From Alkalibacillus filiformis (lineage in GTDB: Bacteria > Bacillota > Bacilli > Bacillales > Alkalibacillaceae), in NCBI RefSeq assembly GCF_030814115.1, contig NZ_JAUSUP010000010.1:1-64000 (forward strand): 64,000 bases of DNA, read 5' to 3'. Positions 18,382-22,993 of the stretch are shown piece after piece. The translations under genes and the position numbers were made by a program. Each line of letters begins with the position of its first letter. Within the stretch, counting starts at the first letter, position 1. The notes beneath the pieces are model-generated. The model saw only the letters and a program-made list of their open reading frames with translations. It did no database searches and had not been told where the DNA came from.

Positions 18382-18468
18382 AAGGATATCTTGCTAGATG
18401 TATAGAATTTAAATAATAACCGTATAATAGAGAAAAAGATTATTAGTCTAAAATTCGAGGTGTCAAAA

Positions 18469-18993
18469 GTGAATAAATTAAGGTGGCTATTGCTAACAAC
18501 TTTTTTGATTGGATCAGGAACAGCAGGCTATTTCGCAGTTGAAGCGAATAGTGAAAGTGGAGAGTTTCTCGACATCTCCCACACAGGCGCTCATGCGAGT
18601 CTGTTTGAGGAGTACCACGATGTTTATATTGGTAAGCAGTTAAGGTGGACTGGTGAGCAAATGCCAACCATTCAAGACGTTAACATTATAAAAGATGACG
18701 GCACGGTACTAAGTAATGGTGACGAATCGATTCACATTGAACTCTTTTTTGATCCTCATAATGAAACGGAGTTGTTTTACGGCTTTAGCCCAGAAATGCG
18801 AGAAGTAGTAGGGGAATACGAGCGCCCTAGCGACTTCACACTATCAGAACGCACGACCACGATTGTGTTTAAAGTGACATTGCATGAAACGAATTATCAG
18901 TTTGACTTAGACTATATACAAATCGAATATGAAGTCAATGATCAAGAATACGCTCAGGAAATTCCACTGAGAAGTTTCGTTTTTCACCATTAA
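18469..18993 (+). CDS. Membrane-anchored or secreted protein of unknown function, 174 aa
   Basis: I do not recognise this protein. The N-terminus LRWLLLTTFLIGSGTAGYFAVEA is a single hydrophobic segment, either an uncleaved anchor or a signal peptide. The rest is an acidic beta-rich extracellular domain without cysteines. GTG 18469 follows GAGGTG at good spacing, and an in-frame GTG at 18460 lies within that site. A TATAAT hexamer is at 18423-18428 without a clear -35. It is a single gene with its own terminator between hut and the surface operon. Confidence 0.75.
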   Translation: MNKLRWLLLTTFLIGSGTAGYFAVEANSESGEFLDISHTGAHASLFEEYHDVYIGKQLRWTGEQMPTIQDVNIIKDDGTVLSNGDESIHIELFFDPHNETELFYGFSPEMREVVGEYERPSDFTLSERTTTIVFKVTLHETNYQFDLDYIQIEYEVNDQEYAQEIPLRSFVFHH

Positions 18994-19112: not shown

Positions 19113-19292
19113 ATGACAAAAGAAGAAATCCAAACACAAATTGATCAGTTAAAGATGGATTATATTCGAATTCAAGGTGATCTAGATAAATTAGAAGCAA
19201 ACGGTGGCAACGTGGCGATGTTAGAAAAATCGCTAAACCGCATCGAGGACGAGCTGGCTTCATTAAGAAAGCAAATGAATCGTGTAGATTAA
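19113..19292 (+). CDS. Small coiled-coil protein, 59 aa
   Basis: The frame encodes 59 residues starting MTKEEIQTQIDQLK and ending LRKQMNRVD. Heptad-like Leu/Ile spacing and a high Lys/Glu/Gln content predict a two-helix coiled coil broken by NGGN near residue 32. GGAGTG lies six bases before ATG, and an intrinsic terminator follows immediately. These signals support a real gene. I do not recognise the family. Confidence 0.75.
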   Translation: MTKEEIQTQIDQLKMDYIRIQGDLDKLEANGGNVAMLEKSLNRIEDELASLRKQMNRVD

Positions 19293-19300
19293 AGTTAAAT

Positions 19301-19336
19301 AAAAGCTGGGGTTAGTCAATTGACCCCAGTTTTATT
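19301..19336 (+). terminator. intrinsic terminator of the small coiled-coil gene
   Basis: CTGGGGT pairs with ACCCCAG around a TCAATTGA-containing loop, followed by TTTTATTTT. Confidence 0.85.
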
Positions 19337-19420: not shown

Positions 19421-19436
19421 GTTCTTTAAAAAGAAT
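19421..19436. promoter_or_regulatory. candidate distal SinR operator
   Basis: GTTCTTT at 19421-19427 exactly matches the B. subtilis SinR 7-bp consensus GTTCTYT and faces an AAGAAT half-site at 19431-19436. It lies 21 bp upstream of the sipW -35. Confidence 0.55.
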
Positions 19437-19456
19437 ATTTGGAGGTATTTAACATT

Positions 19457-19484
19457 TTGAATAATCTGTAAAGTGAACTATAAT
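19457..19484 (+). promoter_or_regulatory. sigma-A promoter of the sipW surface operon
   Basis: TTGAAT, a 16-bp spacer and TATAAT lie about 60 bp before the sipW start. Candidate SinR sites sit on both sides. Confidence 0.65.
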
Positions 19485-19491
19485 TACAAAT

Positions 19492-19516
19492 GGTTGTTCG
19501 TAATAAAGAACAAACC
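19492..19516. promoter_or_regulatory. candidate proximal SinR operator
   Basis: The inverted repeat GGTTGTTC / GAACAAACC includes AAAGAAC at 19505-19511, the reverse complement of the SinR consensus GTTCTTT. It begins eight bases after the -10, over the expected transcription start, an ideal repressor position. Confidence 0.6.
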
Positions 19517-19542
19517 TCTATAAACATTTGAGGGTGTTGGTC

Positions 19543-20085
19543 TTGGCTAAAAAAGTCTGGAAATGGTCTTTAAATATAGTTCTTAGTTTATTAGCTGTCT
19601 TATTGTTACTTACTGTTTACACAAGCTTCCAAGCGAATAATAATCCAGGAAATGTACCGACTTTTTTTGGCATAACACCATTAACGATCTTGTCGGATAG
19701 TATGGACCCAGAATTCATTTCTGGTGATCTAGTATTTATTAAGAATACCGAAGCTACAAAGATTAGTTCAGGAGACATTATCACCTATCAACTAGGAGAT
19801 ATGTTAGTGACTCATAGAGTAATAGACAGAGTAGAGCAAGATGGGGTAATTGAATATGAAACAAAAGGTGACAACGTAGAATTACCAGACCAAAGTCTCG
19901 TGTCAGAGCAAAACCTAGTAGGAGAATATGTGTTCAAAATCCCGAAAGCTGGTCATCTTATGCAGTTTGCCTCAACGCCTATGGGGACATTGGTACTCTT
20001 TGGAATACCGTTTGTTTTGTATGTAGCTGTAGAAATTTATGATCGTGTCAAACGAAGAAACGATCGTGAACAAGAAGCAGCTTGA
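19543..20085 (+). CDS. sipW: SipW-type (ER-type) signal peptidase I
   Basis: This membrane protease (180 residues) removes the special signal peptides of TasA/CalY-type proteins. The N-terminal anchor is at about residues 8-28, the catalytic Ser lies in ILSDSMDPEF and the His in VTHRVID. His in place of Lys marks the ER/SipW class. TKGDN supplies the later conserved region, and a second membrane segment is near the C-terminus. The TTG start at 19543 has GAGGGTG six bases upstream. It leads an operon whose next two products carry SipW-type signals. Confidence 0.92.
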   Translation: MAKKVWKWSLNIVLSLLAVLLLLTVYTSFQANNNPGNVPTFFGITPLTILSDSMDPEFISGDLVFIKNTEATKISSGDIITYQLGDMLVTHRVIDRVEQDGVIEYETKGDNVELPDQSLVSEQNLVGEYVFKIPKAGHLMQFASTPMGTLVLFGIPFVLYVAVEIYDRVKRRNDREQEAA

Positions 20086-20137
20086 TGAACTTAGTAACAA
20101 TTAATTTTTTTATAAATCTGTTGGGAGGAGAATGATT

Positions 20138-20704
20138 ATGAAAAACACGAAGAAGGTTTTGGGTACGCTAGCATTAACAGGTGCCATTTTAGCAGGGGGA
20201 GCATTTGGGACGTATTCGTATTTCTCGGATGAAGATAGTACAACGGGGAGTGTAGAAGCTGGTACATTGGGGATTTCAGTAGGTGAACTATTTAGTGAAG
20301 AGAATTTTGCGCCAGGTAAAACAGCTAGTGCAACTCCTGAAGTAACCAATGAAGGTTCTTTACCAATGTTTGTCGGATATAACTTTGATATTGAAGTTAG
20401 TGATGGGCATGGAGAAAAATATTATTTGGAGATCAAATTGCCTGGTGAGGAAGAAGGAACTAAAAAAACAGTAGATGGTTGGAATGCATACTTTGCTGAA
20501 GAAGATTGGAACTACCTTGATGAAGCGCTGCTTGATGGTGAAGCTTTAGAGTTAGAAGTAATAGCTTCTCTAGATGAAAGTGCTGGAAATGATTATCAAG
20601 AGTCTGAAATAAATGTAACACTTAATGTAATGGGTGTTCAGCAGTTCGATTTTGATTATTCAGCAGACGCTTTTGAAGCTTGGAATGAAGAACACGGTAA
20701 CTAG
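20138..20704 (+). CDS. TasA/CalY (camelysin)-like matrix protein with SipW-type signal peptide
   Basis: This 188-residue exported protein starts with KKVLGTLALTGAILAGGAFGT, followed by YSYFSDEDSTTGSVEAGTL, the hallmark of SipW-processed TasA/CalY proteins. The mature part is an acidic beta-sandwich with NFAPGKTASATPEVTNEG near its start. Family members form extracellular matrix fibres (TasA) or surface proteases/fibres (camelysin). Strong GGGAGGAG precedes ATG 20138. An 11-bp hairpin after the gene may make it more abundant than the genes behind it. TasA versus CalY cannot be resolved here. Confidence 0.88.
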   Translation: MKNTKKVLGTLALTGAILAGGAFGTYSYFSDEDSTTGSVEAGTLGISVGELFSEENFAPGKTASATPEVTNEGSLPMFVGYNFDIEVSDGHGEKYYLEIKLPGEEEGTKKTVDGWNAYFAEEDWNYLDEALLDGEALELEVIASLDESAGNDYQESEINVTLNVMGVQQFDFDYSADAFEAWNEEHGN

Positions 20705-20720
20705 TAGTAAGTAGAGTTTA

Positions 20721-20750
20721 ATAAAGTGACCTGTTTCAAGGTCACTTTAT
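20721..20750 (+). terminator. intercistronic hairpin after the TasA-like gene
   Basis: A perfect 11-bp stem ATAAAGTGACC / GGTCACTTTAT with a short loop has only a weak T-rich tail. It may be a partial terminator or a 3'-end stabiliser setting expression of the first subunit above the rest. Confidence 0.65.
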
Positions 20751-20775
20751 CCTTATTCATAATGAGGTGCTATTC

Positions 20776-21306
20776 ATGAAAAAATATTTATTTTTTAGTT
20801 TAATAACGGCAAGCATCTTAATCCTAGCTATTAGTTCTATTGGTGGGCAAACATGGGCATACTTTTCTGCCGTTGATAGTGCTAGCGGGTCTGTTACTGC
20901 AGGGGAGTGGTATGAGTTTAGCCCTGATGGTTGTTATATTGTTGTCGAAGCTGAGAACACAACAGATTATGATATTAATGATTTTGTTATGACGTATGAC
21001 GGTTTACAACAAGGGTCTACAGAAATTAAACCAGAAGAAAAGTTTGGTCAAGAAATGGAAATTTTATCTAATAGTTCAGAGGTTTTCACATTTGAAATAC
21101 ACCATCACCAACATGAAGGTAAATGTCAGCAATTCACTAACCACGCCCAAGTGGATATGTTCTTTAACTTAACCGCTAACAACAATGAACTGGGTGGGGA
21201 GGCTAACATTAAGTTTGATATCCCTGAAGTTTATTATGTTGATGTCACAATAACTGAAGAAGAGATTTTAATAGATACTTATTCACAAGTGGTTGAAAGT
21301 AATTAA
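20776..21306 (+). CDS. Second SipW-type-signal surface protein, 176 aa
   Basis: The N-terminus has a hydrophobic segment then QTWAYFSAVDSASGSVTAGEW, a clear SipW-dependent signal motif. The mature domain is acidic, with DINDFVMTYDG and two cysteines (in DGCYIVV and EGKCQQF) that could form a disulphide. It also carries a histidine cluster, EIHHHQHEGKC, which could bind metal. I place it as a minor fibre subunit or accessory protein, in the role of a TapA or second CalY, by position only. GAGGTG precedes ATG 20776. Confidence 0.82.
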   Translation: MKKYLFFSLITASILILAISSIGGQTWAYFSAVDSASGSVTAGEWYEFSPDGCYIVVEAENTTDYDINDFVMTYDGLQQGSTEIKPEEKFGQEMEILSNSSEVFTFEIHHHQHEGKCQQFTNHAQVDMFFNLTANNNELGGEANIKFDIPEVYYVDVTITEEEILIDTYSQVVESN

Positions 21307-21380
21307 ATAGAATTAATTATGTACGTTTAAGTTCACGCTGTTTTAACGACTAAAGGCTCTTACGCCTTAAATCGTTACAA

Positions 21381-21407
21381 ACCTCAAGTTTATTAACCTT
21401 GTGAGGT
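21381..21407 (+). promoter_or_regulatory. hairpin that would hide the ribosome binding site of the LPQTG gene
   Basis: ACCTCAAG (21381-21388) can pair with CTTGTGAGGT (21398-21407), which contains the Shine-Dalgarno GTGAGGT of the next gene. A second hairpin lies just upstream around AACGACTAAAGGC. This suggests translational control of the wall-anchored subunit. Confidence 0.45.
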
Positions 21408-21414
21408 GGAAAAG

Positions 21415-22011
21415 ATGAGCAAAATGATAAAGATCTCTATTTCCACTCTAATAGTTATAGCATTGTTTTTATTCCTATCAGTTCAGACGGTGGCTGATGA
21501 AGGCCAAAGCTTGATTGAATTTGACGATGAAGGTTTCTTTCAAGTGACGAACTTTGCGCCAGGTCAGACTGAGGAGTCGACGATTAGTGTGCAAAATGTT
21601 GCTGACTCGTCCATTGAGTATGCTGTGACGTTAGATTATGACGGAGATGAAAACTTCTACGAACAATTATTAGTTAACATGTACGTAGAAGAACAGTTAG
21701 TATATGAAGGTTCGTTCTCGGGATTAGAAGAGGTTGCGGCTGGTGAGTTAGCTGAAGGTGAAGAAGTCCCTTTAACTCTATCAGTGCACTTCCCGAAAGA
21801 AAGTGGTAATGAATATCAAGGTAATAATATGAATTTCGTCTTAACGGCTCATGCAGAAGAGGTAGCTGAAGAAGAAGTTGCTTCAGGCGTCTTACCACAA
21901 ACTGGTGAAGGCATTCCTTACTTATATTACATTGGTGGAGCGCTATTGTTGTTAATAGGTGTAGCACTTCTCTTATCTAAAAAACGACCCAAGACGATTG
22001 TTGAGGGCTAA
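21415..22011 (+). CDS. LPXTG cell-wall-anchored surface protein (TasA-like core)
   Basis: This 198-residue protein has an ordinary Sec signal (about residues 1-28, ending SVQTVADEG). An acidic beta-rich domain contains NFAPGQTEESTISVQN, the same NFAPGxT motif as the TasA-like protein two genes upstream. The C-terminus has a complete sortase signal: LPQTGEG, about 20 hydrophobic residues, then KKRPK. It should be covalently linked to peptidoglycan by the sortase encoded directly after it. It has no SipW-type YFSD motif. A fibre-anchoring role is inference. Confidence 0.88.
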   Translation: MSKMIKISISTLIVIALFLFLSVQTVADEGQSLIEFDDEGFFQVTNFAPGQTEESTISVQNVADSSIEYAVTLDYDGDENFYEQLLVNMYVEEQLVYEGSFSGLEEVAAGELAEGEEVPLTLSVHFPKESGNEYQGNNMNFVLTAHAEEVAEEEVASGVLPQTGEGIPYLYYIGGALLLLIGVALLLSKKRPKTIVEG

Positions 22012-22014
22012 GCT

Positions 22015-22623
22015 GTGAGAAAAGTTATAGCAGTTTTGTTTGTACTCGCAGGAATTGCAGTCATAGCTTACCCTTCTTTTCAAAATCAGTACTATTCAGC
22101 ACAAGAACAAGGGCTCGTCGAAGAGTTCCAACAACTAAACACGCTTTTTGAACTACATTCGAGTCATAAGGAATTGCCTGCGAGGGAAGAAGGGGATGAC
22201 AATTCGGCTAATAATCCCTCTGATGAGTTAACTACAGATGCAATTGGATTAATCCATATTGAAAAAATTGATTTAACCTTGCCGATGTTATTAGGTGCTA
22301 CGGATGAAAACTTGGACGTTGGAGCAGGAGTTTTAGGGAAAGACGCAACATTTGGAGAATCAGGTAATACTGGGATTGCAGCTCATAGAAGTCGTACATC
22401 AGGAAGATTATTTAATCGACTGGACGAAGTGGAAAAAGGCGATCGAATTGTCATTGAAACTCATGGTGGTGAGTATGAGTATGAAGTTTATAATTTACTC
22501 ATCGTTGAACCTGAAGATGTATCTGTTTTAGAAGAGCAAGGCGATGATTCGATTGTGACGTTAATCACTTGCACAATTGACCCGACACACCGAATTATTG
22601 TTCAAGCAAAAGAAGTTCAATAA
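22015..22623 (+). CDS. Sortase (class D-like)
   Basis: This membrane-tethered transpeptidase (202 residues) cleaves LPXTG-type signals and joins the protein to the wall or to another subunit. The N-terminal anchor is at about residues 3-20. Catalytic residues are visible: His in GIAAHRSRT, Cys in TLITCT and Arg in THRIIV. A low-complexity linker (REEGDDNSANNPSDE) separates anchor and core. The GTG start lies three bases after the LPQTG gene, so enzyme and substrate are coupled. The class is judged from the N-terminal style and TLITC context. Confidence 0.9.
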   Translation: MRKVIAVLFVLAGIAVIAYPSFQNQYYSAQEQGLVEEFQQLNTLFELHSSHKELPAREEGDDNSANNPSDELTTDAIGLIHIEKIDLTLPMLLGATDENLDVGAGVLGKDATFGESGNTGIAAHRSRTSGRLFNRLDEVEKGDRIVIETHGGEYEYEVYNLLIVEPEDVSVLEEQGDDSIVTLITCTIDPTHRIIVQAKEVQ

Positions 22624-22665
22624 AAAAGCTGGTCGTAAGCATTCATACTTACAACCAGCTTTTTT
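22622..22665. terminator. bidirectional terminator between the sortase gene and sinR
   Basis: AAAAAAGCTGGT and GTAAG pair with CTTAC and ACCAGCTTTTTT, giving A- and T-runs on opposite sides. It serves both convergent genes. Confidence 0.88.
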
Positions 22666-22993
22666 AGTGCCCTTGATTCTTTTTCCATTTATTAAATTCA
22701 AGAAATTCACGGAACTCATCTTTAGATACGCCAGAGTCCATTGCATCTTTTACGAGCTTTTCCCACTCGCGGTCTAATGGTTCATCGCTCATTTCTTTAG
22801 GATCTTTAATTAAATGGTCAACATCAAGGTTTAATACATTGGCGACCTTTTCAAGAAATTGAATAGAAGGGTTTTGTTGAATGTTTCGTTCTATGGCACT
22901 TAAATATGACTTGGCAATTCCAGCTTCTTCAGCCAACTGCGTTAGGGTCATCCCAGCCTCTTTACGATAATTTTTTACACGCTCACCGATCAT
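22664..22993 (-). CDS. sinR: SinR, biofilm master repressor homologue
   Basis: This 109-residue regulator aligns by eye along its whole length with B. subtilis SinR. The N-terminal XRE helix-turn-helix is MIGERVKNYRKEAGMTLTQLAEEAG followed by KSYLSAIERNIQQNPSIQFLEK. The C-terminal SinI/SinR dimerisation hairpin is EWEKLVKDAMDSGVSKDEFREFLEF. In B. subtilis SinR represses tapA-sipW-tasA and eps. Here the gene converges on a sipW/tasA-like operon that has candidate SinR sites at its promoter. No sinI antirepressor gene lies beside it. AAGGAG precedes ATG. Confidence 0.93.
   Translation of the reverse strand: MIGERVKNYRKEAGMTLTQLAEEAGIAKSYLSAIERNIQQNPSIQFLEKVANVLNLDVDHLIKDPKEMSDEPLDREWEKLVKDAMDSGVSKDEFREFLEFNKWKKNQGH

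Follow-up and report, generated by a model that had tools for sequence, protein, structure and literature searches.

It is not settled what keeps TasA-type matrix fibres on the cell. In Bacillus subtilis, whose tapA-sipW-tasA operon is among the closest known systems, the N-terminal strand of each TasA subunit (residues 28-38) completes the next one, the mechanistic precedent of donor-strand exchange (PMC9674648); the first strand of the fibre is proposed to come from TapA (PMC9674648 and PMC10151520), which is also 'thought to be involved' in anchoring (PMC9674648). The sipW-tasA-capP(bc1280)-calY region of Bacillus cereus, which is SinR-linked, likewise places a further protein beside its TasA-type subunits, namely CapP, a DUF4047 protein with repeats, and is described as sortase-independent (PMC13082335). 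In Clostridium perfringens a sortase gene, srtB, adjoins sipW and the matrix protein genes (sipW-bsaABCRSD), but BsaA is without an LPXTG motif (PMC7395162). Here, we describe a locus from Alkalibacillus filiformis, a salt-loving relative of Bacillus, in which a SipW-type peptidase, a TasA-like protein, a TasA-fold protein with an LPQTG sorting signal (hereafter LPX) and a sortase are encoded together; it lies in a stretch of 64,000 nucleotides (the window) within a 65,651-base contig of a 2.7 Mb draft genome.

The locus comprises six genes at window positions 19543-22993, in the order SipW-type peptidase, TasA-like protein, a third protein (P3), LPX, sortase and a convergent sinR, and the five plus-strand genes would form one operon. 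All six, including the full-length SinR gene placed tail-to-tail by the initial annotation, were recovered by family models. Like the B. subtilis operon, it offers a SipW-type peptidase, a TasA-fold subunit with a SipW signal, a SinR homologue, SinR-type boxes and SinI-like genes elsewhere in the genome; unlike it, the operon adds LPX and the sortase, and the genome has no clear TapA. Among the titles and abstract openings listed in searches of open-access literature, we found this arrangement nowhere described, and none mentioned an LPXTG protein with the TasA fold or a TasA locus that needs a sortase, which is a weak absence.

We consider it fairly probable that this locus encodes a SinR-controlled, sortase-anchored TasA-type fibre in which LPX is an acceptor-only end subunit. 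The SipW-type peptidase would secrete TasA-type subunits, these would polymerise by donor-strand exchange, LPX would accept the strand offered by the final TasA subunit and so end the fibre, and the neighbouring dedicated sortase would join LPX to peptidoglycan; SinR, relieved by SinI, would repress the operon by way of boxes that precede sipW. Incorporation of LPX into the fibre, its polarity, the covalent link and the repression by SinR are steps that we infer. Base and terminator end subunits fix the fibre in both sortase pili and chaperone-usher pili, and the role proposed for LPX resembles theirs, with the difference that donor-strand polymerisation would here be combined with a sortase link; if true, a single structure would unite the principle of chaperone-usher assembly with that of the sortase. 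Rather more tentatively, we propose the possibility that this design is widespread, with a non-covalent TasA donor-strand fibre, an acceptor-only TasA-fold subunit coupled to peptidoglycan by a dedicated sortase, and lineages using one of two pairs of sortase and signal.

Fold of LPX and its apparent lack of a donor strand

LPX (21415-22011, plus strand, 198 amino acids) matches the sorting-signal family PF00746 with 23.3 bits (cut-off 20), and its assignment to the TasA fold is well supported by sequence comparison and structure prediction. Among the aligned members of the LPX family, 77 of 81 match PF12389 (Peptidase_M73, camelysin) at E<=0.001. The LPX profile aligns to a TasA profile built from 59 proteins (the window's and 58 from related loci) with a probability of 99.3 and an E value of 1.8e-20, and the window's own LPX aligns to the same profile with a probability of 95.0. 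Its best sequence matches in the PDB are the B. subtilis TasA fibre (8aur, 6.7e-6) and monomer (5of1, 5.3e-5). For LPX of the window, the AlphaFold (AF2) model reaches a mean pLDDT (predicted local distance difference test) of 85.9 and, compared by VIA-align, brings TasA to the top of the structural list (5of2 with Z 10.1 over 118 aligned residues at 2.9 Å, 5of1 with 9.7 and 8aur with 9.4); the model also has a C-terminal helix, in addition to the sorting signal. The NFAPGxT motif that had been noticed in both surface proteins reads NFAPGKT in the TasA-like protein and NFAPGQT in LPX, and NFAPG is the window's version of N-x-KPGD, a signature in the consensus of both the TasA and the LPX families. 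A relation of LPX to TapA was rejected, the comparison with TapA profiles covering 15 columns at a probability of 35.7.

The gene at 20138-20704 (plus strand, 188 amino acids) encodes the TasA/CalY-like fibre subunit. PF12389 (32.6 bits, cut-off 22.5), a SipW-type signal (TIGR04088) and the structural match of its AF2 model (pLDDT 73.0; best match the TasA fibre 8aur, Z 9.3) together identify the product of 20138-20701 as a TasA subunit, and the donor-strand motif is present in it. Elsewhere in the window's genome no match to PF12389 was found besides this protein and, below the cut-off, P3. The peptidase (19543-20085, plus strand, 180 amino acids, TTG start) scores 113 bits against TIGR02228 (cut-off 51.85), which places it in the wider peptidase family, and 115 bits against the SipW equivalog NF046067, under the cut-off of 190. 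P3 (20776-21306, plus strand, 176 amino acids) is an orphan with a SipW-dependent signal (TIGR04088, E 1.8e-7) and without a match in the other 21 genomes of Alkalibacillaceae. It is possibly a reduced TapA, with a match to TIGR04087 at E 0.00097 (18.8 bits, under the curated cut-off of 80); since the alignment of P3 to the TapA profile covers the signal region only, we do not claim that identity.

The donor strand was compared across 88 LPX loci (the best 80 of 133, the window and 7 further, with 8 duplicate loci dropped). From a mature start predicted by a rule that guesses signal cleavage, the distance to the conserved PG is 16-33 residues in LPX (median 23; 87 of the 88 proteins gave a value) versus 32-40 in 97 TasA proteins. 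A donor motif written from the TasA consensus was found in its strict form in 94 of 107 TasA proteins and in no LPX protein (0/88), and in a looser form in 98 of 107 and 3 of 88, respectively. The structural alignment of LPX begins at TasA residue 43-45, and the window's LPX has no match to the SipW-type signal TIGR04088. LPX thus seems, by sequence, to be without the N-terminal donor strand of TasA, and the short N-terminus, the missing motif and the alignment start at 43-45 together suggest a protein able to accept a strand but not to donate one, whose place would be at the end of the fibre away from TapA. It is a TasA-fold protein but not a standard TasA subunit, judged by donor strand and SipW-type signal. 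The suggestion that the LPQTG protein is a TasA-fold subunit turned wall anchor therefore stands as to the fold; as to the subunit it has to be narrowed, the protein seemingly lacking a donor strand and so resembling an end or anchor subunit.

The same features could be explained if LPX were not a fibre subunit at all but a wall-anchored TasA-fold adhesin or an assembly helper standing beside the fibre. Helper proteins are known from such loci, TapA and CapP among them (PMC10151520 and PMC13082335), and a protein seemingly without a donor strand would probably not serve as an internal subunit of the TasA kind. The LPX domain, however, matches the part of TasA that runs from roughly residue 43 through the rest of the sandwich, the region that an acceptor needs, and the CapP domain DUF4047 gave no Pfam match at E<=0.001 in the 81 LPX members, so that LPX as a CapP homologue was rejected. 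We regard the adhesin or helper as unlikely, if the foremost of the alternatives that we weighed.

Linkage to sipW and tasA and the pairing of signal with sortase

The linkage of LPX with sipW and tasA is well supported by gene neighbourhoods, in which neighbours were called with profiles seeded with the LPX family's own genes. A sipW gene lies within 2.5 kb upstream of LPX in 83 of the 88 loci and a tasA gene within 3.2 kb upstream in 84; tapA lies no farther than 4.5 kb away in 67 loci, and 65 have a SinR-like gene at a distance of up to 5 kb, the last figure being without a chance control. Of the 22 genomes of Alkalibacillaceae, the window's own included, 16 contain an LPX match and 18 contain SipW, one genome of the same genus having neither. 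Among relatives, 15 neighbourhoods were mapped: a TapA-family gene is present in all 15, called with a profile seeded with most of them (two of the proteins were checked and both exceed the TIGR04087 cut-off), a sortase of the window's type adjoins LPX in nine, and a SinR-like gene is present in 14, convergent in several. On plasmids, no LPX relative was found. The arrangement is not peculiar to the A. filiformis genome but is common in Bacillaceae, across many genera, and the window holds one divergent member of it.

Could the genes be chance neighbours with separate functions? The sortase next to sipW in C. perfringens is dispensable (PMC7395162), which is what such a view would expect. Set against it are the linkage to sipW and tasA in 83-84 of the 88 loci and a sample of 397 genomes drawn evenly from the order. 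Of the 58 window-type sortases in that sample, 30 follow an LPX match on the same strand at a distance of at most 8 kb, and 26 of these at a distance of at most 1 kb; among the sortases scoring at least 185 bits the proportion is 30 of 41. LPX matches in this sample were taken down to about 2e-15 (116 genomes, 113 of them with a match below 1e-20), some secondary pieces of matches being left out. We find it hardly credible that the neighbourhood is accidental. Two of the 28 window-type sortases that are not near LPX were inspected, one beside a different protein of 473 amino acids ending in LPQTGES (L214:21-2181) and one between two SinR-like genes (L203:995-2983).

The window's sortase (22015-22623, plus strand, 202 amino acids) has an N-terminal hydrophobic segment and a TLITC motif, which recurs in 26 of 27 window-type sortases, mostly with PTHR after it. 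It scores 105 bits against PF04203 (cut-off 26.6) and exceeds the general sortase cut-off TIGR01076, and it is over none of the class cut-offs listed, with 73.3 bits against class D NF033746 (cut-off 165) and 85 against class D NF058671 (cut-off 140). Its best NCBIfam class score, 116.7 bits, is for class C (NF033745), as would fit a sortase that polymerised LPX or TasA into a covalent pilus in class C style. That score is nevertheless under the cut-off of 160. A DP[WFY] lid motif and a C-terminal membrane segment mark class C sortases, and neither occurs in any of the 27 window-type sortases, which makes a polymerising role unlikely; moreover, LPX alone in the window's operon matched the sorting-signal model. 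We therefore hold a covalent pilus to be very improbable. LPX is also the only protein over the PF00746 cut-off in the window's genome. Two other sortases of that genome exceed the PF04203 cut-off, a fourth match being under it; both pass the SrtD cut-off and adjoin proteins with LPxTATN-like tails (under the signal cut-off), which are candidate substrates.

Two versions of the locus emerge when LPX proteins are classed by the residues after the sorting motif, a classification whose final form was drawn after the sortases had been seen. LPxTGE-type signals are carried by 27 LPX proteins, of which 25 have a window-type sortase adjacent, one has it within 6 kb and one has none, this exception (L103) lying about 400 bases from a contig edge. 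TN-type signals, LPxT[A/G/S] followed by TN or similar, are carried by 59, none of them with a window-type sortase in the sequence covered; another sortase lies within 5.5 kb in 26 of the 59, that is, in fewer than half. The remaining two of the 88 have no readable motif. Because LPxTGE-type proteins served as the query by which the loci were collected, and the list was cut at the best 80 of 133, the frequencies of the two versions are biased. Four of the 26 TN-locus sortases were tested (L086, L122, L107 and L134) and all four pass the cut-off for SrtD, which is LPxTATN-specific, while four of four TN-type LPX proteins tested exceed the LPxTATN signal cut-off. The LPX relatives of the second version thus resemble SrtD/LPxTATN substrates (NF058671, NF058670), unlike the window, where the signal is LPQTGE and the sortase passes none of the class cut-offs. 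When loci are sorted instead by the last letter of the motif, the 36 LPxTG proteins divide into 25 with an adjacent window-type sortase, one with it farther away, three with another sortase and seven with none, and the 50 LPxT[A/S] proteins into 23 with another sortase and 27 with none, a window-type sortase occurring in no case.

The pairing of signal and sortase is consistent but not many times independent. In the LPX tree, where the window's LPX sits on a very long branch of unsure placement, two independent pairs fall on starred branches, one in the same direction and one without a difference. Two large TapA-domain proteins with sorting motifs point the same way: one from Aquisalibacillus (L073:10316-12007, equal to L028:6909-8600) ends in LPQTG and adjoins a second window-type sortase, and one from Bacillus sp. 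Marseille-Q3570 (L071:12444-14225) ends in LPNTA and adjoins an SrtD. Tandem sorting motifs, LPSTG...LPQTG or LPFTG...LPQTG, occur in single LPX proteins (L068, L069, L024 and L035).

The initial annotation had read the locus as a hybrid of matrix-fibre and sortase genes and expected the sortase and LPQTG genes to be kept beside sipW. That reading is supported, with sipW neighbouring LPX in nearly all loci and a window-type sortase by 26 of the 27 LPxTGE-type proteins; the hybrid is real, though it is not specific to this genome, and over half of the 88 loci have the other signal and no window-type sortase. A conserved TasA-fold protein with a sortase signal beside sipW and tasA, often with a sortase of its own, would be a directly testable answer to the question of anchoring, and the two naturally occurring signal versions offer a comparison.

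Several results weigh against LPX as the sortase-linked end of a TasA fibre. On the fold, the window's own, divergent LPX has no match to PF12389 at E<=0.001; in the structural comparison, archaeal CanA (Z 9.2) scores level with TasA, the remaining rows reaching at most 7.9 (a second CanA entry); and Foldseek alone returned a single match to the LPX model at E<=0.001, which was not TasA, with TasA absent among the 50 matches listed. On the donor strand, the distances depend on guessed cleavage sites, and the window's TasA-like protein, which is outside the 97 measured, has by reading 30 residues before PG. The motif, being derived from TasA, found just 10 of 69 TapA proteins in its strict form (26 of 69 in the looser one) and is thus not a general donor detector. 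No TapA over the family cut-off was found in the window's genome. On the sortase, none was seen nearby in 33 of the 59 TN-type loci, 10 of the 36 proteins classed by last letter as LPxTG have no window-type sortase nearby, the final classes were drawn with the sortases in view, and in the tree the pairing comes down chiefly to a single deep split, with too few independent changes (3 at the fewest) for a statistical test. Among the 25 LPX-adjacent sortases, that of L072 is without its catalytic end in frame. In C. perfringens, deletion of the sortase left pellicles and BsaA polymers unchanged (PMC7395162).

The L072 sortase, from Piscibacillus salipiscarius (L072:9606-10157, equal to L027:6163-6714), is a frame without the TLITC end that may be broken or misassembled. 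A gene for a VTT-domain (TVP38-type) membrane protein follows LPX by at most 70 bases in nine of the 88 loci (L031, L036, L084, L086, L092, L094, L099, L102 and L136), none with a window-type sortase nearby; PF09335 was tested in L031 and L036, and the others were called by our own profile.

SinR, putative transcription signals and flanking genes

The convergent gene at 22664-22993 (minus strand, 109 amino acids) matches the helix-turn-helix domain PF01381 and the SinI-type domain PF08671, identifying its product as a full-length SinR, and its best solved match is B. subtilis SinR (1b0n/3zkc, E 6.7e-40 over residues 1-107). Two small SinI-like genes lie elsewhere in the window's genome. Upstream of sipW, a palindrome (GTTCTTT-AA-AAAGAAT, 19421-19436) combines one exact half with a one-mismatch half at a 9-base offset, where GTTCTYT is what we take to be the SinR box from the B. 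subtilis literature; the initial annotation had begun the locus at 19421, which falls exactly on this palindrome. A second half-box, AAAGAAC, follows at 19505-19511 and is an exact 7-mer; the whole 64 kb window holds 36 exact boxes. In 86 upstream stretches (two of the 88 loci had too little upstream sequence) we counted 158 exact boxes or their complement, versus 18.8 in shuffles; with the window excluded, 85 stretches hold 157 boxes, whereas AT-matched windows taken from these loci gave 36.5 on average and 53 at most. The 9-base offset is the commonest inverted box geometry upstream of the related operons (15 cases). SinR probably represses the operon via these putative boxes upstream of sipW.

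A promoter-like site, TTGAAT-16-TATAAT (19457-19484, plus strand, 10 of 12 matches), lies between the boxes, at chance level for the region, in which 14 such sites were found against 13.6 expected. A hairpin between the sortase gene and sinR (22621-22666), predicted by folding, is a candidate shared terminator, the stretch 22615-22690 having a minimum free energy of -22.6 kcal/mol (z -6.7). A stem-loop between the TasA-like gene and P3 (20721-20750, plus strand, z -4.4), without a clean T run, is a possible partial terminator; it is also the one terminator-like site inside the operon, and such sites occur at chance number (two found against 2.4 expected). In C. perfringens, bsaA is reported to be followed by a terminator (PMC7395162), and a partial terminator at 20721-20750 could set a high ratio of TasA to anchor.

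Upstream of the operon, downstream of hut genes, positions 18460-18993 encode a protein of 177 amino acids with a signal-like N-terminus and no family over cut-off, and several relatives have similar proteins in the corresponding position. A gene for a 59-residue SE1832-family protein (19113-19289) immediately precedes the operon and is followed by a terminator-like hairpin at 19302-19333.

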